Source: Thiomonas sp. X19
GTDB lineage: Bacteria; Pseudomonadota; Gammaproteobacteria; Burkholderiales; Burkholderiaceae_C
Length of the DNA: 15,183 nucleotides
Assembly (NCBI RefSeq): GCF_900089495.1
Contig: NZ_LT605203.1
Location: 3,769,739 to 3,784,921, forward strand
Direction: 5' to 3'
Part shown: piece after piece, positions 101-15,183 of the stretch
Position numbering within the stretch: the stretch's first letter is position 1
How the letters are laid out: every line of letters starts with the position of its first letter
Position numbers and translations under genes: made by a program
Notes under the pieces: generated by a model
Database searches by the model: none
What the model was told of the DNA's origin: nothing
The model's input: only the letters and a program-made list of their open reading frames with translations

Positions 101-1483
101 GTGAACGTTCCGGGGTATGGCATGGGGTTTGGATTTCGCGTCAAGCAACTCGACTATGACCTGACGCCGGTGGCCGGTCTGGCCCTTGTCGGTCATCACC
201 TCAAGCGCCTCGATCCTCTGTTCAAACGCCTGGATGCCCAGTGGCCTTGCCGCGGCGGACTGCCGCCCAGCACACTGATGCGCAGCTATGTTGGCTTGCT
301 CGCGCAGAGCAAGAGCGACTTCGATGCCATCGAAGGCTTTCGAGGCGATCGTTTCTTCCAGGAGGCGCTGGGTCTGGTGGGTGTGCCGTCCTCGCCCACC
401 CTGCGCCAGCGCCTGGATGCGCAGGCCGCCCTGTGGTTTGACTTCACCTCCCAGGCGATTGAAGCGCTGCTGCGCAAGAGCCAACCGGACTATGGTCTTT
501 TGCCTTGCGGTCATGTGCCGCTGGACATCGACACCTTCGCGATGGACAACTCGGGCACAGCCAAGGATGGGGTGAGCCGCACCTACGCGGGGGTCGATGG
601 CTACTGCCCGCTGGCGGCCTACCTGGGCACGCATGGGTTTTGCCTGGAGTTCGCCCTACGTCCGGGCGCGCAGCACTCGGCTTCGGAGACGACCTACAAC
701 CTCGAGACGGCCGTGCCCATGGCGCAGCGCCTGTCGACCGCAGGCCCCAAGGCGCCGATTCTCGTGCGCATGGATGCGGGGTTTTGCTCGGCCGCCTTGA
801 TGGCCGACATGCAGCGCTGCAACAGGCCAGGACTGCCCCGGGTCGATGTTCTGATCAAGTGGAATCCCCGCAAGACCGATCCTCTGGAGGTCTTGCGACG
901 GCAGGAACTGGAAGGGGGTTTGTTGTGGCAGCATCCGCGCGCAGGCAAGCGCGTGGCGGTTTGGGAGGTGGCCGTGCAGGTCGAAGGCATCGCCCATCGC
1001 CTGCGCCGCATTGTGCGCATCACGGAGCGCACCGTCGATGCCCGTGGCCAGCAGTTTTTGGTCCCCGAGATCATCTTGGAGGGCTGGACGACAAGCTTGC
1101 CCAAGGCCATCAGCGCCGAGGCGATCATCGACCTGTACGCCGGGCACGCTACGCACGAGCAGTTCCATGCGGAATTCAAAACCGACATGGATCTGGAGCG
1201 ACTGCCCTCGGGGAAGTTCGACACGAACGATCTTGTCTGCCAGCTTGCGGCCCTGACGATGAACGTGCTGCGCCTCATGGGGCAGCAAGGGCTGCTGGGG
1301 CCGCATGCACCGGTGCGCCATGCGGCCAGGCGACGGCGTCTGAAGACTGTGATCCAGGAACTTGTCATCCGCGCAGCACGCGTGATCAACCATGGCGGGC
1401 GGCTGTGGTTGGGACTGGGCGCCAACGACAAGGCAGCCCGTGCCTTTTGCGATCTGCATGCGCAGTTCGCCGCCAGCGGCTGA
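101..1483 (+). CDS. IS1380-family transposase
   Basis: This 460-residue DDE transposase (PF13701, Transposase_DDE_4 type) catalyses cut-and-paste movement of the surrounding IS. Visible family marks are the block LDIDTFAMDNSGTAKDG near residue 145 with the first catalytic Asp, LVRMDAGF near residue 222 with the second, and YAGHATHEQFHAEFKTDMD near residue 350 with the catalytic Glu. The length is normal for the family and the frame is unbroken, so the element may be active. The longest frame starts with GTG at 101; an in-frame ATG at 122, eight bases after a GGGG run, is an equally good start. The gene fills the space between matching terminal repeats. Confidence 0.93.
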   Translation: MNVPGYGMGFGFRVKQLDYDLTPVAGLALVGHHLKRLDPLFKRLDAQWPCRGGLPPSTLMRSYVGLLAQSKSDFDAIEGFRGDRFFQEALGLVGVPSSPTLRQRLDAQAALWFDFTSQAIEALLRKSQPDYGLLPCGHVPLDIDTFAMDNSGTAKDGVSRTYAGVDGYCPLAAYLGTHGFCLEFALRPGAQHSASETTYNLETAVPMAQRLSTAGPKAPILVRMDAGFCSAALMADMQRCNRPGLPRVDVLIKWNPRKTDPLEVLRRQELEGGLLWQHPRAGKRVAVWEVAVQVEGIAHRLRRIVRITERTVDARGQQFLVPEIILEGWTTSLPKAISAEAIIDLYAGHATHEQFHAEFKTDMDLERLPSGKFDTNDLVCQLAALTMNVLRLMGQQGLLGPHAPVRHAARRRRLKTVIQELVIRAARVINHGGRLWLGLGANDKAARAFCDLHAQFAASG

Positions 1484-1717: not shown

Positions 1718-2808
1718 CTGAAGTGCAACACCTTGCCATCCGGTAAGGTGCCGTGAATGACAAGAACGACGTACCGACAGCTTCAACCCGCCGAACGCAT
1801 GCGCATTGAGATCTGGAAAGCCGAGAAGGTCAGTCTGCGGGCCATGGCCCGCAGACTGGGCCGTGCGCCCTCGACCTTGACGCGGGAGCTTGCCCGCAAT
1901 GCCCAAGACAGCGCGGGGAGCTACGACGCCATGGTGGGGCAGACCCTGCGCGCCAGGCGCCGCGCCGCCAGCCGTCCAGCGGCGAAGCTGGCCCCCAGCA
2001 GCGTGCTCTGGGGTGCGGTGCGCGAGATGCTGGCGTGGAAGTGGTCGCCCCAGGAGATCGCCGCTACGCTCAAGCGCACCTATCCTGACGATTCCAGCCG
2101 CCACGTGTCCCACGAGACGATTTACAACGCCATCTACGCCCACCCCAAGGGCGAGCTGCGGCGCGAACTCATCGCCTGCCTGCGCCAGGGCCATGGGAAG
2201 CGCCTGCCGCGTTCGCGCGGCACCGACCGCCGCGGCCAGATCCCCGAGATGGTCAGCATTCATGTGCGCCCGCCCGAGATCGAGGATCGTCTGATGCCCG
2301 GCCACTGGGAGGGCGACCTCATCAAGGGGGCGGGCAACAAGTCGGCTGTGGCCGTGCTGGTCGAACGCATGAGCCGCGCCGTCTTGCTGGCCAAGATGCC
2401 CGACTCCACGGCGGCATCGGCGCTGCAAGCCTTCACCACCAAGCTGCAATCCCTGGTGGCGCCGCTGCGCCAGAGCATGACCTACGACCAGGGCAGGGAG
2501 ATGAGTCGGCATGCCGATTTGACGGCCGCCACCGGCGTGCGGGTGTACTTCTGCGACCCGCACAGCCCCTGGCAGCGCGGCACCTGCGAGAACACCAACG
2601 GCCTGCTGCGCCAGTACATGCCCAAGGGCACGGATCTGTCGGTCTACTCGCAGCAAAAACTCGACGCGATCGCCGACAGCCTCAACACCCGGCCGCGCCA
2701 AACCCTGGGCTGGAGGTCGCCACTGCAGGTGCTCGCGGAAATCCTCGTCAACCCCCAAGAACCCTCTCCCGTCCATTAACCCCAAGGGCGTTGCGCTTCG
2801 CACTTGAA
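1718..2808 (+). mobile_element. IS30-family insertion sequence
   Basis: The element carries one intact transposase flanked by imperfect inverted repeats. The left core GAAGTGCAACACC (1720-1732) matches the reverse complement of 2787-2799 (GAAGCGCAACGCC) at 11 of 13 positions. The exact ends are uncertain by about 10 bp because the left end abuts or is clipped by the IS1380 right repeat, and the right end could extend to the TTCAAGTG motif (reverse complement of 2801-2808). About 1.09 kb is normal for IS30. The right end interrupts a minus-strand membrane-protein gene. Confidence 0.75.
1757..2779 (+). CDS. IS30-family transposase
   Basis: The protein has 340 residues. The N-terminus carries the IS30 helix-turn-helix (residues about 1-50, YRQLQPAERMRIEIWK through RRLGRAPSTLTRELARN) that binds the element ends. 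The C-terminal rve-type integrase core shows GHWEGDLIKG (first Asp, near residue 183), TYDQGREMSRH (second Asp, near 243) and PWQRGTCENTNGLLRQ (catalytic Glu, near 278). The ending NTRPRQTLGWRSP is typical of the family. The ATG at 1757 follows an AAGGTG ribosome binding site. The frame is intact and full length, so it is probably functional. Confidence 0.94.
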   Translation: MTRTTYRQLQPAERMRIEIWKAEKVSLRAMARRLGRAPSTLTRELARNAQDSAGSYDAMVGQTLRARRRAASRPAAKLAPSSVLWGAVREMLAWKWSPQEIAATLKRTYPDDSSRHVSHETIYNAIYAHPKGELRRELIACLRQGHGKRLPRSRGTDRRGQIPEMVSIHVRPPEIEDRLMPGHWEGDLIKGAGNKSAVAVLVERMSRAVLLAKMPDSTAASALQAFTTKLQSLVAPLRQSMTYDQGREMSRHADLTAATGVRVYFCDPHSPWQRGTCENTNGLLRQYMPKGTDLSVYSQQKLDAIADSLNTRPRQTLGWRSPLQVLAEILVNPQEPSPVH

Positions 2809-10704: not shown

Positions 10705-11229
10705 CTATGTAGCGAGTCTGGTTGCGAGGATACGCGCCTCGGCCAGCCAGACCCAAGCGAGTGGGGCCCAAGTTGACCTGTCATGGTGTGCCATGAGGCG
10801 GCGTGCGCGCTCGTTCCAGGCATGAGTACGCTCGACAACCCAACGCTTGGCCTGCACGACGAAGCCCTTGGCTACAACCTCTGGCCACAAGGGCTGCTGC
10901 GCGTCCTGCCAAGTGCCCGTGCTGCGGTTGCCGGGGTGACGCACGATGTCCACGCTGAGGCCGTGGGCCTCCTCGATGGCCACGGCGCACTTGCCGCCGT
11001 AGGCGCCATCGGCGTAGAGCTTCTTCAGGCCAGTCACCTTGGTGCAAGCCTGCGCCACCACGGCAGCGGCGGCGTCACGGTCCTGCACGCTGGCCGCGGT
11101 GACCGTGACGGCCAGCAGAAGGCCCAAAGTATCGACCACCAGATGGCGCTTGCGCCCCTTGACCTTCTTGCCGGCGTCGAACCCGGCCCCACCACCTTGC
11201 GCGGTGCTCTGCGCATCGATGATTGCGGG
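10705..11229 (-). CDS. IS5-family transposase, C-terminal part (frameshifted)
   Basis: This frame carries the second half of the DDE transposase (PF01609 type). It begins in effect at the frameshift near 11227 with PAIIDAQST, which holds the first catalytic Asp. It continues AGFDAGKKVKGRKRHLVVDTLGLLLAVTVTAASVQD, LYADGAYGG with the second Asp, and WVVERTHAWNERARRLMAHHD with the catalytic Glu. The same open frame extends upstream to 11499, but that part is a shadow of the N-terminal frame. Expression as a working enzyme would need a frameshift by the ribosome or a reverting mutation. Confidence 0.82.
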   Translation of the reverse strand, partial: PAIIDAQSTAQGGGAGFDAGKKVKGRKRHLVVDTLGLLLAVTVTAASVQDRDAAAAVVAQACTKVTGLKKLYADGAYGGKCAVAIEEAHGLSVDIVRHPGNRSTGTWQDAQQPLWPEVVAKGFVVQAKRWVVERTHAWNERARRLMAHHDRSTWAPLAWVWLAEARILATRLAT

Positions 11230-11833
11230 CCGTCGGCTCGGGCGCTCGACCGATGCGGTCACGCCATTGCTGGCGCAGCCGATCATGCATGGCCTCAAAG
11301 ACGCCGAGCGCAGCCCAACGGCTGAAGGCCTTGTAGGTCGCCTGCCAGGGCGGGAAGGTCTTGGGCAGCAGCCGCCACGCGCAGCCGGTGCGCAACGCGT
11401 GGCAGCAGGCGTTGACCATGTGGCGGCGCGCATACCGGGGCGGCACCCCGCGCTGCCCATCGCGCTCGAACAAGTCGCCCACCAGCGCCCACTCGGCATC
11501 GGTCAGGTCGGTGTTCATGCCGCTGGCGCCATCGGCACGACGGTGCGCTGCGGTGTAGCCGTATCGCGTCGGGGTTGCCCCTTGAACTGCCGCCCGTTCA
11601 CCCGCCCGGCGCAGCGGCTTGAGCCGCTCGATGCCGGCCTTGCGCAGCGCCTTGCGCACGGTGACGGTGCTGACCTTGACTCCCGTGCGTCGAAACAACT
11701 CGCGCGTCACCGCGTCCAACGACGAGCGCGGCTGCTCCTGCGTGATCGCGCGCAGCACCGCCGTGTGTTCAATGTTCAGCGAGGGCTTGCGGCCCGGCCG
11801 TCCTGCTTGCTCAATCTGCGCCTTCCTGACCAT
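11075..11833 (-). CDS. IS5-family transposase, N-terminal part (frameshifted)
   Basis: The meaningful part covers about the first 200 of 252 residues. Residues 1-75 look like an added helix-turn-helix domain (GRPGRKPSLNIEHTAVLRAI, SSLDAVTRELFRRTGVKVS, TVTVRKALRKAGIERLKP), unlike a minimal IS5 transposase. From MNTDLTDAEWALVGDLF near residue 105 the usual IS5 N-terminal domain begins (PPRYARRHMVNACCHALRTGCAWRLLP, PPWQATYKAFSRW, RLRQQWRDRIGRAPEP). After ACG GCC at about 11230 the frame drifts into unrelated residues. Skipping one C of the CCC at 11227-11229 joins it to the C-terminal frame exactly where family members have AAVIDSQS-like residues. I read this as a one-base insertion. Confidence 0.82.
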   Translation of the reverse strand: MVRKAQIEQAGRPGRKPSLNIEHTAVLRAITQEQPRSSLDAVTRELFRRTGVKVSTVTVRKALRKAGIERLKPLRRAGERAAVQGATPTRYGYTAAHRRADGASGMNTDLTDAEWALVGDLFERDGQRGVPPRYARRHMVNACCHALRTGCAWRLLPKTFPPWQATYKAFSRWAALGVFEAMHDRLRQQWRDRIGRAPEPTARNHRCAEHRARWWGRVRRRQEGQGAQAPSGGRYFGPSAGRHGHRGQRAGP

Positions 11834-12425
11834 TCGATACCTCGCCGACGCATGACTCGATCCGAGTCATAACGCGCGAGATGTTGTTTTCGTCTACACC
11901 CTCTGAGCCTTCGCCGGCGATCAGGCCATGACGGGCGAACACCAGCCGCCAAGCCTCCAGCTTGCGCGCAAAACTCCACGACGCATTCGCCGGGCTGGTG
12001 GAGGGCAGGCGGTGGCAAAACGGAGCCAGGCTCGCGGTGGAACGCATCATCCGCGCCGACTCGCCGCCGTTGTGCGCAATGGCCTGCAGCCGCGGCAGCC
12101 GTGCCACCAGCCCGGGCAGATCGTTCGGCTGCGCCTGGGTGATGGCGGCGTCGAGGCTGCCCTCGCGCTCACACGCGGCGTATACGTCCCAGATGCCCAG
12201 ACCGCGCGCCATCACTGCCTGCAGCCGCGCTGCGTAGTCCAGCCGCATCAAATCCAGCTCGAACAAGGCGGCGAGCAGAGGCCAGAACTGGTTGCGCGGA
12301 TGGGCGTAATACTGCTGCGCCTGCAGCGACGCTCGGCTCGGAAAACTGCCCAGCAGCAGCAAGCGGGTTTGCGCTCCCGCCGCTGGCGGCAGGCCCTGCA
12401 AACGGGTTGGTGATGGTGGGGGCAT
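11811..12425 (-). CDS. DNA-deoxyinosine/uracil glycosylase-like protein, C-terminus altered by IS5
   Basis: The frame from ATG 12425 encodes about 204 residues; the first 165 or so are a uracil-DNA-glycosylase superfamily protein of the deoxyinosine (hypoxanthine) DNA glycosylase type. Motifs are LLLLGSFPSRASLQAQQYYAHPRNQFWPLL near residue 20, GLGIWDVYAACEREGSLDAAI near 70, AIAHNGG near 115 and LPSTSPANASWSFARKLEAWR near 135. Such enzymes remove deaminated bases in base excision repair. After LIAGEGS (ending at 11904) the frame enters the IS5 terminal repeat (EGVDENN) and stops inside the element. All active-site motifs precede the junction, so activity may survive. An upstream ATG at 12548 is possible but gives a low-complexity leader. 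Confidence 0.83.
   Translation of the reverse strand: MPPPSPTRLQGLPPAAGAQTRLLLLGSFPSRASLQAQQYYAHPRNQFWPLLAALFELDLMRLDYAARLQAVMARGLGIWDVYAACEREGSLDAAITQAQPNDLPGLVARLPRLQAIAHNGGESARMMRSTASLAPFCHRLPSTSPANASWSFARKLEAWRLVFARHGLIAGEGSEGVDENNISRVMTRIESCVGEVSNGQEGAD
11888..11903 (-). repeat. IS5 element terminal inverted repeat (right)
   Basis: This is the exact reverse complement of 10685-10700. TGA follows as the second copy of the target duplication. The repeat is translated as EGVDEN in the fused glycosylase frame. Confidence 0.9.
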
Positions 12426-12567
12426 CGTGGGGCCGGATGTGCAGTCGGAAATGGAGACTGAAATAGATTCGGATAGGAATTTAGCGGCGGCCAGGAGCGG
12501 CGTATCGGTTGGGGGCTGATCAACTGGCGCCTGCGGCTGAACGCGCATCCCAGGCAGGCGCCCTGCC

Positions 12568-12573
12568 TATAAT
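12568..12573 (+). promoter_or_regulatory. -10 box of the tRNA-Gly promoter
   Basis: A perfect TATAAT lies 11 bases before the first base of the tRNA sequence, a normal distance for a stable-RNA promoter. No clear -35 box is visible 17 bases upstream. The promoter now reads into the integrated element. Confidence 0.6.
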
Positions 12574-12584
12574 CAGCGGCTCAA

Positions 12585-12622
12585 GCGGGCGTAGTTCAAT
12601 GGTAGAACTTCTGCTTCCCAAG
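12585..12622 (+). pseudogene. tRNA-Gly(CCC) 5' half, interrupted in the anticodon loop
   Basis: The sequence reads as tRNA: acceptor strand GCGGGCG (12585-12591), TA, D-stem GTTC (12594-12597) pairing with GAAC (12605-12608) around AATGGTA, anticodon stem TCTGC (12610-12614) and loop TTCCCAA (12615-12621) with anticodon CCC. The 3' anticodon strand should be GCAGA, but after G12622 the sequence is GGTAAGTAAG and has no T arm or matching acceptor strand. The gene is therefore cut at the anticodon loop, at the point where the integrase-bearing element begins. Confidence 0.85.
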
Positions 12623-12726
12623 GGTAAGTAAGATCGCCCTGAGACCCGCATGAATGCTTGTATTTCCTGTGTCGCCTATCCCTTTTGTGGGAATCCAGTG
12701 GGAATGACAGGAAAGGAACAAGCATC
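12615..12726 (+). other. Attachment junction (attL-type) and integrase leader
   Basis: The host tRNA sequence ends within or just after TTCCCAAG (12615-12622), the probable crossover core. Element DNA follows up to the integrase start. Many tyrosine recombinases use an anticodon loop and its symmetric stem as crossover site. The exact core cannot be fixed without the other end of the element. Confidence 0.65.
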
Positions 12727-13797
12727 ATGGCTTACTTCGAACAACGCGGCACCGGCTGGTCTGTGCAAGTGCGTCGCAAGGGCGCGCCATCGATCAGCCG
12801 CACCTTTGATCTGAAGACCGACGCCGAAGCCTGGGCGCGCGAGGTCGAGCGCGAGCACCAGCGCGGCAACGTCATGGCGATGCGCAATGACGCGGGCAAG
12901 GTGACCCTTGGTGAAGTCGCGGACATCTACATGGTGGCCGTGGTGCCGCTCCGCCGATCGCATTCCGCTGGGACGCACATCCGGTTTGCCAAGGAACGAT
13001 TTGGCAAGTTCTTCCTGGCCAATATCCGTTCTGTCGATGTCGCCGCGTGGCGCGATGAGTTGCTGCGCGCTGGCTACGCGCCGCAGTCCGTGATTCACCA
13101 GCTCAATGCCCTTTCTGCGTTGTTCAGCCACGCCGAAAAGGAGATGTCCATCCCCTTGCCCGCTGGCAACCCGGTGAAGGCCATCCGCAAGCCTGCCAAG
13201 ACGCCACCGCGCGAACGTCGCTTGGTTGGGCTTGAGTACGACTACCTGATGCGCGCCGCAACCGCAGCACAAGCGCCCGGCCTTCACCAGGCGCTTGTGC
13301 TGGCCGTCGAGACTTCCGCGCGGTTGTCTGAGTTGCTGTCGATGAAGTGGAAGGATATTGACCTGCAGCGCCGCACCGTCAAGCTGCGCGGCGTCGGTGG
13401 GCGTGTCACGAAAAATGATGATCCCTTCCGCGTCGTCGCGCTGTCGAGCGCGGCTATCAACGCGCTGCAAAGCATGCCACGCCGACTTGATGGCAAGGTG
13501 TTTAGTTGGTGTCCCACACCAGCCAAAGTCGCAACATTCCAGAAGGCTTGGCAGCGTTGTCGTGCCCGCGCGTTGCGTTTCTACCTTGCCGATTGCGCGC
13601 GCGATGGCGTAGAGCCTGACCCAGCGTTCCTGCATGACTTGCATTTCCATGACCTGCGCCACGAGGCTACATCCCGCCTGTTTGAGAAGAACCTGGGCAT
13701 CATGGAGGTGGCCAGCATGACGGGCCACAAGAGCCTCGCCTCGCTCAAGCGATACACGCACATCGAGGCGGAGAAGCTGGCGGCAAAGCTGGGATAG
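12727..13797 (+). CDS. Tyrosine-recombinase integrase of the integrated element
   Basis: The protein has 356 residues. The N-terminus (MAYFEQRGTGWSVQVRRKGAPS) is an arm-binding domain of the type seen in phage and ICE integrases, followed by a SAM-like core-binding domain (about 70-160) and the catalytic domain. Catalytic residues are visible: R199 in ETSARLSELL, H308 and R311 in HFHDLRH, H334 in MTGHKSL and the nucleophile Y343 in LKRYTH. The ATG at 12727 follows AAAGGAA at slightly long spacing; the frame is open from 12658 without a better start. It starts 105 bp from the tRNA junction, the classic position for an integrase at an element end, and should catalyse insertion into tRNA-Gly(CCC). 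It converges with brnA, with only four bases between the stops. Confidence 0.94.
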   Translation: MAYFEQRGTGWSVQVRRKGAPSISRTFDLKTDAEAWAREVEREHQRGNVMAMRNDAGKVTLGEVADIYMVAVVPLRRSHSAGTHIRFAKERFGKFFLANIRSVDVAAWRDELLRAGYAPQSVIHQLNALSALFSHAEKEMSIPLPAGNPVKAIRKPAKTPPRERRLVGLEYDYLMRAATAAQAPGLHQALVLAVETSARLSELLSMKWKDIDLQRRTVKLRGVGGRVTKNDDPFRVVALSSAAINALQSMPRRLDGKVFSWCPTPAKVATFQKAWQRCRARALRFYLADCARDGVEPDPAFLHDLHFHDLRHEATSRLFEKNLGIMEVASMTGHKSLASLKRYTHIEAEKLAAKLG

Positions 13798-13801
13798 TTC
13801 T

Positions 13802-14152
13802 TCAAGCCGCCTTGCTGTGCCGCTCGCCGCGCGGCGCAGGCTTGGCTGGCGCCACCTCCCGCAGCATCGCCTCGCGCAGGATGGCGTTGATCTTGGTCTG
13901 GTAACCGCGCCCCTTGGACTTGAGCCACAGCAGCACGTCCGAGTCCACGCGCACCGTGGTCGGCGTCTTGGTGGGCTTGTAGAACGGGTTGCGCACCGCG
14001 TTCTTCCAGAACGCATCCCCCAGCGCCGGGATGTCGCTGACATCGATACCGCTGTCAGGCTTCGCCGCCAGGGCCTCCAGTTCCTTGCGCTGCCTGGCGG
14101 TCAGCGGCGGCAGCTTGGCCAGGTCCACGGCATGTTTAACCATTTTGCTCAT
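13802..14152 (-). CDS. brnA: BrnA-type antitoxin
   Basis: This 116-residue protein is the antitoxin of a type II BrnT/BrnA pair. Its C-terminal half (NPFYKPTKTPTTVRVDSDVLLWLKSKGRGYQTKINAILREAML) is the family's DNA-binding ribbon-helix-helix region: the TTVRVDSDVL strand, then two helices. The N-terminal half (LPPLTARQRKELEALAAKPDSGIDVSDIPAL) is the usual toxin-contacting part. The ATG at 14152 lies inside the end of brnT (17-bp overlap) with GGAAAG upstream; ATG 14143 is an alternative. BrnA proteins bind the toxin and repress the shared promoter. It ends four bases from the integrase stop. Confidence 0.9.
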   Translation of the reverse strand: MSKMVKHAVDLAKLPPLTARQRKELEALAAKPDSGIDVSDIPALGDAFWKNAVRNPFYKPTKTPTTVRVDSDVLLWLKSKGRGYQTKINAILREAMLREVAPAKPAPRGERHSKAA

Positions 14153-14429
14153 AGTCTTTCCTTTCCTTCGGGTCGGCGCGCCGGGCCGAGATGATGCGGA
14201 TGACCTCGGTGCCATCGTCCTCGTTGCGCACGGTGTGCGCCACCACGAGCAACACATAGCCCTCCACCACGCCAATGGTGATCCACCTTGGCTCACCGCC
14301 TTCGATGCGGTCCTGGTTGGACGATGCGAGCGGGTCGGCAAACACGCGCATGGCCGTCTCGAAGCGCACCCCATGCTTGCGCAGGTTGGCCAGCGCCTTG
14401 GCGGGGTCCCATTCGAATTTGGTGAGCAT
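14136..14429 (-). CDS. brnT: BrnT-type toxin (ribonuclease)
   Basis: The protein has 97 residues, normal for PF04365. Family signatures are FEWDPAKALANLRKHGVRFETAMRVFADP at the N-terminus, VEGYVLLVVAHTVRNEDDGTEVIRIISARRA in the middle, and ERKDYE at the end. BrnT is a RelE-like ribonuclease that blocks translation when free of BrnA. Residues matched to the family include the HT (near 65) and RIISAR (near 78) segments. The gene order toxin then antitoxin, with overlap, is the standard BrnTA layout. In an integrated element the pair probably stabilises the element, which is inference. Confidence 0.92.
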   Translation of the reverse strand: MLTKFEWDPAKALANLRKHGVRFETAMRVFADPLASSNQDRIEGGEPRWITIGVVEGYVLLVVAHTVRNEDDGTEVIRIISARRADPKERKDYEQNG

Positions 14430-14459
14430 GCGAATATGTTAGTACAAATTTGCCTGCTT
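14430..14459 (-). promoter_or_regulatory. brnTA promoter/operator region
   Basis: The 30-bp gap before brnT is AT-rich in a GC-rich setting. It contains the dyad TGT-TAGT-ACA (14437-14446). TATTCG lies just before the ATG, so transcription may give a nearly leaderless message. BrnA is known to repress its own operon through inverted repeats; that this dyad is the site is inferred. Confidence 0.4.
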
Positions 14460-14918
14460 TCAATCTTCGCTCGGCAGCATGATCGTGATGACCGGCTCGC
14501 CTGCGTCGCCAGGTCCGACCTGCAGCTTGAGCGTGGCCAGGCGGGGACGAACGCCCCGGCCATCGCGCGGGATGCGCAAGACTTGAAACAAGATCGGGTC
14601 GCGGCCATCGTGCCCACGGCGCAGGCCTGCGCGGATCGCACGCGATGCCATCCACACGACATCCCAAAGCCTGCCGCTCTCGCTCTGCCAGCACGCCCCG
14701 CCACCCTTGCGCTTGTCGTCGGCGTCGGTCCAAGCGCAGGCGTCGGCCCACGCGGCGGATGTGAGGGCCACGGGCCACACGATGCCGGCCTCGCGTGCGG
14801 TGGTGCTGACATCGATCAGCATGCCGTCCTCGATGGCTTGCGCGCGGGTGTAGGTGTGGATGGGTTCGCCGAAGATTTCTTGCATGGCGTCGGTGCGGGT
14901 GATGGTTGCTGCGGTCAT
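14460..14918 (-). CDS. DUF6573-like protein of mobile elements
   Basis: The product has 152 residues from the ATG at 14918, which has AGGAG eight bases upstream. The N-terminal segment IFGEPIHTYTRAQAIEDGMLIDVSTTAREAG is the hallmark of the DUF6573 family, and the conserved tail ends in DAGEPVITIMLPSED. The middle has GRLWDVVWMASRAIR and DPILFQVLRIPRDGR. The function is unknown. Such proteins are frequent on plasmids, conjugative elements and other islands, near replication or transfer genes, which agrees with its place in a tRNA-integrated element. It lies 30 bp upstream of brnT on the same strand. Confidence 0.75.
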   Translation of the reverse strand: MTAATITRTDAMQEIFGEPIHTYTRAQAIEDGMLIDVSTTAREAGIVWPVALTSAAWADACAWTDADDKRKGGGACWQSESGRLWDVVWMASRAIRAGLRRGHDGRDPILFQVLRIPRDGRGVRPRLATLKLQVGPGDAGEPVITIMLPSED

Positions 14919-14946
14919 GGTGTGTGCTCCTGCGTGGTTGCGTGGA

Positions 14947-15183
14947 TCAGTAGATGCGGACAAAGAGAGCCTTGCGCATCGGCTTGCTGTCGTCGTATCC
15001 GAAATAGGCTTTCAGGCCGTGCCCGATGTCGCGCGTGTCGCCGACGGTCACCGGCTCATGCGGGCCGTTGAACCAGCGCAGCACCTCGTCGACGTCGTGC
15101 GCCTGGGCTGCCTCTGCCGTGATGAAGAACTCACCGCTCAGGTAGTGCTTGTGCAGGGTTGCCTCCGGGATTTGCACATCTGC
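14947..15183 (-). CDS. Hypothetical protein, 5' end beyond window
   Basis: The minus-strand frame is open from the window edge to TGA at 14947-14949. A GTG at 15177 (VQIPEATLHKHYL) could start it, but no ribosome binding site can be assessed and the frame stays open before it, so the true start is probably outside. The 78 visible residues are a small soluble protein with LSGEFFITAEAAQAHDVDEVLRWFN and a final strand KALFVRIY. I do not recognise the family. It precedes the DUF6573-like gene on the same strand by 28 bp and may share its transcript as island cargo. Confidence 0.6.
   Translation of the reverse strand, partial: ADVQIPEATLHKHYLSGEFFITAEAAQAHDVDEVLRWFNGPHEPVTVGDTRDIGHGLKAYFGYDDSKPMRKALFVRIY

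Follow-up and report, generated by a model that had tools for sequence, protein, structure and literature searches.

Among the tRNA-targeting islands described in Islander, 3760/3919 displace a 3' fragment of the gene, and 159/3919 (about 4%) are found with a 5' fragment (PMC4383910). Similarly, a review citing Williams 2002 states that the rebuilt bacterial tRNA retains its original promoter, with very few exceptions (PMC8371274). Considering both sources, islands of the 5'-fragment kind are known and rare. They have a complete tRNA gene and a 5' fragment at their ends and a tyrosine integrase, with anticodon-centred sites being common among them (PMC4383910). The 5' half of a tRNA gene is also used by the archaeal pTN3-like integrases; however, integration breaks up their integrase gene, and the promoter of the integrase is said to serve the tRNA (PMC8371274, PMC5495485). 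Regarding phages, the tyrosine integrases of the Pseudomonas phages PAJU2, Ab31 and YA3 are among the closest named ones to the enzyme described below (about 35% identity), and YA3 and Ab31 likewise target a tRNA gene, but in YA3 the shared sequence is the final 63 bp of a tRNA-Ser gene, that is, a supply of the 3' part (PMC7326022). In the tRNA-dependent lysogeny of mycobacteriophages it is also the element, and not the host, that secures the interrupted tRNA, but by carrying a whole separate tRNA gene (PMC10865867).

The window, that is, the whole stretch of 15,183 nucleotides analysed here (G000:C3:3769739-3784921, from Thiomonas sp. X19), contains the integrase-side end of a 5'-fragment island, a kind already known and rare in bacteria. 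Against the Islander counts, the earlier note was right in degree in calling the arrangement unusual. Our main reading, to which a probability of about 0.88 is given, is a 22.3-kb integrative, probably mobilizable element located in the anticodon loop of tRNA-Gly(CCC), whose far end replaces the 5' half of the gene and likely its promoter, and which possibly came by way of tRNA-Pro(UGG). As in the Islander 5'-fragment islands, a complete tRNA gene and a 5' fragment stand at the ends, the integrase is a tyrosine one and the site is centred on the anticodon. Unlike that set, the window integrase belongs to a clade whose sampled members are otherwise of the 3' type, and the change of side can thereby be traced inside a single group. 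In contrast to the pTN3/SSV type, the integrase ORF is whole and the attachment site lies 105 bp upstream of it; in contrast to the mycobacteriophages, a half gene is fused to the other half of the host.

The closest comparison is with the own relatives of this integrase, found in tRNA-Pro, -Arg, -Thr, -Asp and other genes, the closest with 59-66% integrase identity. They share the anticodon-loop site and, where compared, the left and right arm motifs with their spacing, but mostly have the 3' part antisense beside the integrase, and the three far ends read supply a 3' half and a terminator-like hairpin. As these close relatives do the opposite, the two arrangements can be compared end for end: the spacing is the same, the tRNA half is the other one, and TATAAT takes the place of the hairpin. 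The host tRNA gene is thus very likely now under the promoter of a mobile element, while the native tRNA promoter faces the integrase.

The two ends of the element and the rebuilt tRNA-Gly(CCC)

The features of the integrase-side end are the following (window positions).

12585 to 12622, + strand: displaced 5' half of tRNA-Gly(CCC), a left-behind fragment with 38/38 nt identity to the complete gene
12615 to 12621, + strand: anticodon loop TTCCCAA, putative strand-exchange (overlap) region; the identity of the two ends stops at 12622
12623 to 15183, no strand assigned: left part of the element, which extends beyond the window as far as G000:C3:3804696 (total length 22,336 bp)
12727 to 13797, + strand: tyrosine integrase, 356 aa (PF00589, 78.1 bits, cut-off 27.1)

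The half gene reads GCGGGCG...CTTCTGCTTCCCAAG, with the anticodon CCC at 12617-12619, and matches the start of the complete tRNA-Gly(CCC) at G000:C3:3804659. From 12623 onwards the window has GGTAAG where the intact gene has CAGATG, and the identity between the two element ends ceases at 12622, one base beyond the anticodon loop; strand exchange would hence be placed within this loop, its exact crossover position being a probable one. The integrase ATG at 12727 is 105 bp past the last tRNA base, and the gene points away from the orphan half on the same strand. In the window itself, no tRNA is called by ARAGORN, nor by Rfam at gathering scores. The sequence therefore bears out the earlier description of a tRNA-Gly(CCC) 5' half cut by an element, with an integrase 105 bp further on.

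As seen in the rest of the 4.67-Mb genome, the 43 bp at 12580-12622 have a single other exact copy (E 1.8e-15), located without mismatch at G000:C3:3804654-3804696, which runs on into a complete tRNA-Gly(CCC) at G000:C3:3804659-3804732 (73.4 bits). Since a repeat of this significance heads a complete gene, the orphan half is not a matter of chance, and the length of the element comes to about 22,336 bp. At the right end are found TATAAT (3804588-3804593), the right-arm motif ATTGATTT and another copy of the 5' half, which is joined to the 3' half in the chromosome. In this way, the suggested look beyond position 15183 found TTCCCAAGCAGA followed by the T arm and the acceptor strand, and of the two options in the earlier note, the one of a substitute 5' half and promoter at the far end holds directly for the half, and by way of the TATAAT, as a likely case, for the promoter. 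No separate tRNA gene was found in the window part of the element, in its 19.1-kb interior (L035) or, besides the rebuilt gene, in L036; 164 interior bases of the element are masked.

Relatives lacking the element, whose comparison had also been proposed, exist in two congeners (G001 and G011), where tRNA-Gly(CCC) is intact at the empty site. The same genes flank the empty sites and the element: a UDG-superfamily gene, with 83% (G001) and 80% (G011) identity to this genome, and a methyltransferase gene (Pfam Methyltransf_4), which we take to be TrmB, with 87% (G001) and 75% (G011). The far-end 5' half and the empty sites together indicate that the element brings a substitute 5' half. Islander looks for a fragment and a complete tRNA gene in the same orientation, 2-200 kb apart, with a 5' fragment upstream of the complete gene and an integrase in the interval; here, the fragment (3782323) and the complete gene (3804659) are both on the + strand and 22.3 kb apart, the 5' fragment is at the lower coordinate, and the PF00589 integrase lies between them.

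Homologous right ends were searched at two scales. Among 399 genomes of the order, at E 1e-25, a threshold that would drop weaker right-end matches, there were besides this genome eight matches, all confined or nearly confined to the tRNA. Among 28 genomes of the genus, at E 0.01, a match of 68% over the right end was obtained in G023, in addition to short ones in G000 and G020. The right end of this other element in G023 has the 5' half as well and leads into a complete tRNA-Gly(CCC) (72.6 bits).

The left chromosomal flank of the island holds three different transposase genes, at window 101-1483 (+), 1757-2779 (+) and 10705-11499 (-), with the domains DDE_Tnp_1_4, HTH_38 plus rve (presumably IS30-like) and DDE_Tnp_1, respectively.

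Related integrases and their attachment sites

The comparison with relatives covered 82 distinct integrase matches, the window included, and the upstream DNA of 74 of them. With a library of 43 tRNA sequences found in the loci examined, by which unlike tRNAs may be missed, a tRNA match was obtained in 64/74 upstream regions (window included) and none in ten. The 3' part of a tRNA, antisense to the integrase, is present in 55/64 matching regions, and 49 of these 55 matches start within the anticodon arm (tRNA position 25-36), the other six having another start owing to a match that was short or that ran on. A complete tRNA was matched in eight regions (seven sense, one antisense), although five of the seven sense ones match only to about position 60, yet read whole. 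A 5' part in sense was found in the window alone (1/64). Relative to its close kin, the tRNA gene of the window is reversed with respect to the integrase. It also follows that the premise under which the locus had been called unusual, namely that most elements restore the tRNA at the integrase end, does not apply to this integrase group.

Some relatives could be read at both ends; several are fragmented. In the 3' type of G249, in tRNA-Pro(UGG), the complete gene is at C10:73950 and the displaced 3' half at about 98050. The displaced half was also found beside the integrase for Pro(GGG) in G327 and for Arg(UCU) in G327 and G000. In the three far ends read (G249 Pro(UGG), G327 Pro(GGG) and G000 Arg(UCU)), a hairpin and a T run come after the complete tRNA, as read in the sense of the tRNA (3/3, by eye).

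The probable arm-type sites beside the window integrase are two.

12644 to 12660, + strand: left-arm motif ACCCGCATGAATGCTTG, a probable arm-type integrase site that recurs
12687 to 12705, + strand: two direct GTGGGAAT repeats, probable arm-type sites, with a similar pair at the right end

The left-arm motif, often degenerate, is also seen next to related integrases, about equally far from the anticodon. At five right ends, in integrase orientation, pairs of GGGGGAAT-, GTGGGAAT- or GGGACAAT-like repeats are followed by a TTGATTT motif and then by the tRNA half. The distance from the end of the right-arm motif to the anticodon (or adjacent base) is 52 bp for the window element and 53 bp in G023, compared to 52 bp (G249 Pro), 53 bp (G000 Arg) and 51 bp (G327 Pro) in the 3' types. 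Within this distance, the window element and G023 have a 5' half, and the three 3' types an antisense 3' half. The interval between the repeats and the right-arm motif contains a terminator-like hairpin in the three 3' types, and TATAAT or TACAAT in the two 5' types. Thus, the arm sites keep their spacing, whereas the tRNA half that is duplicated and the control signal next to it are different.

The stretch 12633-12649 (ATCGCCC...CCCGC) was considered as an acceptor strand or degenerate 3' half, but is better read as element sequence with the ACCCGCATG left-arm motif, which is seen again next to integrases located in other tRNA genes; one Arg(UCU) relative has ATCGCCT before this motif, similar to the ATCGCCC of the window.

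Related integrases are plentiful in this genome (eight matches). Two of them, at G000:C3:3048973-3050037 (+, L073) and 3102260-3103324 (-, L074/L090), with 66 and 64% identity to that of the window, flank a block of about 54 kb on both sides and point into it; this block splits one gene resembling, as read from its translation, a TRAP-type transporter permease, which suggests two islands in one protein-gene site. In addition, the integrases of L093, L086, L089 and L106 match that of the window no further than about residue 284-300, with a poor fit in the C-terminal part, a hint of mosaic or truncated enzymes. A single-protein search of the genome_contigs and viral_contigs collections confirmed no relatives, and an alignment-based one gave 11 viral loci with a related integrase (27-38% identity); the upstream DNA of nine was compared with the tRNA library and matched in six, the best matches being the 3' part in sense, so that these loci are of little use for explaining the flip in orientation.

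Promoters, cargo and mobility

The native promoter of the tRNA gene is placed by its -10 element.

12568 to 12573, + strand: TATAAT, -10 of the native tRNA-Gly(CCC) promoter, the same in the empty sites of G001 and G011

The distance from TATAAT to the tRNA start is 10-11 nt in both empty sites and 11 nt in the window. As the empty sites match the left side of the window, the native promoter is the one on the left, and the leader at the right end is part of the element. In this leader, TATAAT stands 65 nt before the tRNA, and it is the sole TATAAT on the + strand of the 22,336-bp element, the - strand having none (164 bases masked); TACAAT is in the corresponding place at the right end of G023. 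A consensus scan for a sigma-70 promoter at the right end returned none and also missed the native tRNA promoter, so that the scan is uninformative and, given the TATAAT, promoter activity is likely. Judging from the sequence, the rebuilt tRNA-Gly(CCC) is most likely made from the element's own promoter. On the other side, no terminator-like site was found in 12400-12760, and the native tRNA promoter would read via the orphan half toward the integrase, thereby expressing it in the integrated state.

Besides the integrase, the element carries the following genes.

14136 to 14429 of the window, - strand: BrnT-type ribonuclease toxin gene of a type II toxin-antitoxin system (PF04365, 89.6 bits, cut-off 34.5)
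L035:9219-10604 and G000:C3:3801159-3802544, both + strand: transposase ORFs of 461 aa, the first of which was scanned against Pfam

A DUF6573 gene is also near the integrase, and the two transposase ORFs, about 7 kb apart, are identical in their first 60 residues. Regarding mobility, a VirD4/TraD-type coupling protein is encoded (PF02534, 51.8 bits, cut-off 20.1), which scores 75.1 bits against the NCBIfam SXT_TraD model, below its cut-off of 366, as well as a MobC-like replication-relaxation protein with scores below both cut-offs (MobC_subf 167.7 bits, cut-off 200; Replic_Relax 23.5, cut-off 25.3). The Pfam scan of nine ORFs of the element turned up no relaxase. In the G023 element, a TrwC relaxase and a coupling protein of the TrwB type are present. 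By their gene content, both elements look mobilizable.

Origin of the 5'-supplying arrangement

The proposed course of events would begin with the tyrosine integrase inserting the element into the anticodon loop of tRNA-Gly(CCC). The 3' half of the gene would then be displaced by the integrase-side end, leaving the native promoter and the 5' half as an orphan facing the integrase, and the replacement 5' half of the far end, with TATAAT 65 nt before it, would join the host 3' half into a complete tRNA gene. Since the duplicated block is at the right end and the tRNA is co-oriented with the integrase, this block must be a 5' half with a promoter for the gene to survive. Compared to the relatives, a 3' half would have been exchanged for a 5' half and a terminator for a promoter, with the spacing of the arm sites unchanged.

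For the source of this reversal, the 17-bp anticodon arm of tRNA-Gly(CCC) was compared with both strands of the tRNAs in loci L001-L030, where the best non-self match is tRNA-Pro(UGG) antisense (15/17 bases); against its own antisense, the arm matches at 14/17. An ancestor using tRNA-Pro(UGG) may thus have met tRNA-Gly(CCC), whose anticodon arm is nearly identical on the opposite strand. With a nearly equal core and a reversed gene, the element would have to give up its 3' half and terminator, acquire a 5' half and promoter, and keep the arm spacing. The nearest integrase was expected to target tRNA-Pro(UGG), and in a 32-row full-length tree computed at the same time the window integrase pairs with the Pro(UGG) integrase L093 (96/93). 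When four relatives were added and ten distant rows dropped (26 rows), support for this pairing fell to 46/97, and of 1000 bootstraps, 527 join the window to two integrases in a transporter-like gene and 462 to L093. A tree of residues 1-176, a split picked after the conflict in the full-length tree had been seen and which should hold the DNA-binding domains, again pairs both (100/99). The first 178 residues of L093 have 74-75% identity to those of the window integrase, with the next row at 65%; its open frame is cut short (287 aa), and the alignment of the C-terminal part is poor (49% over 96 residues). No far end of L093 turned up within 40 kb. As 2/22 of the other integrases of the clade use Pro(UGG), a chance match would be expected in roughly 1 in 10 cases. 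With one sister pair behind it, the Pro(UGG) to Gly(CCC) route is suggestive.

In general terms, 5'-supplying islands could arise when integrases move between tRNA genes with near reverse-complement anticodons, such as Pro(UGG)/Gly(CCC), after which the orphan native promoter would read into the integrase; we hold this proposal tentatively, at somewhat less than even odds. If true, it predicts which pairs of tRNA genes yield the rare 5' type. In a literature search that was not worded on complementary anticodons, no title on such a route was found.

An alternative to this route, with a chance that comes close to even, accepts the 5'-fragment island but holds the likeness to Pro(UGG) as coincidental, the 5' half and promoter of Gly(CCC) having been captured directly, for example by imprecise excision. 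It is in agreement with the lower sister support of the 26-row tree, with the frequent changes of target in the group, where Arg, Thr, Asp, Met and Pro targets interleave in the trees, and with the near-symmetry of tRNA-Gly(CCC), by which an integrase could turn round on the same gene; the union of the N-terminal half with L093 and the rank of antisense Pro(UGG) as best non-self match in the scored set argue against it. A composite structure, with the left end of one island and the right end of another brought together by recombination or deletion, so that they form no single functional attachment-site pair, is considered improbable. The eight related integrase matches in this genome and the two transposase ORFs with a shared start inside the element could have provided for it, but the GTGGGAAT-type repeats and arm motifs match at both ends with the spacing of related islands, the end-to-end identity stops one base past the anticodon loop, and a homologous right end is present in G023.

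Two further readings concern the tRNA itself, and both have practically no chance. That the cell lacks tRNA-Gly(CCC) and reads GGG with tRNA-Gly(UCC), the other option in the earlier note, agrees with the missing tRNA call of the window only, and is refuted at the sequence level by the complete gene at 3804659-3804732. Trans-splicing of two half transcripts, as in the split tRNAs of some archaea, found no support in the tRNA scans, and against it stand the contiguous tRNA-Gly(CCC) gene and neighbouring genes of bacterial kinds.

A pattern search for cut 5' halves of tRNA-Gly(CCC) gave nine loci in genome_contigs and none in viral_contigs. At L128:6484-6512 (-) of CAKMKG010000027.1, from an uncultured Firmicutes, the cut half is followed on the same strand by a 316-aa integrase that is XerC/XerD-like with scores below curated cut-offs, possibly an independent 5'-type island; no second copy of this half was found in its genome at up to one mismatch. 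The loci L130, L132 and L133 were set aside, as by eye they look like complete tRNAs with an altered anticodon stem. At L134:4120-4148 (+) of JAIESW010000024.1, a Burkholderiales MAG, a tRNA-Gly 5' half stands before an almost complete inverted copy of itself, with which it could fold into a long hairpin, and a tRNA-Gly-like sequence comes next (by eye). At L129:964-992 (Chromatiales MAG) and L131:6015-6043 (Sedimenticola MAG), the tRNA-Gly(CCC) 5' half is cut after the anticodon loop, and a divergent second tRNA-Gly-like sequence, reading complete by eye, comes shortly after it.
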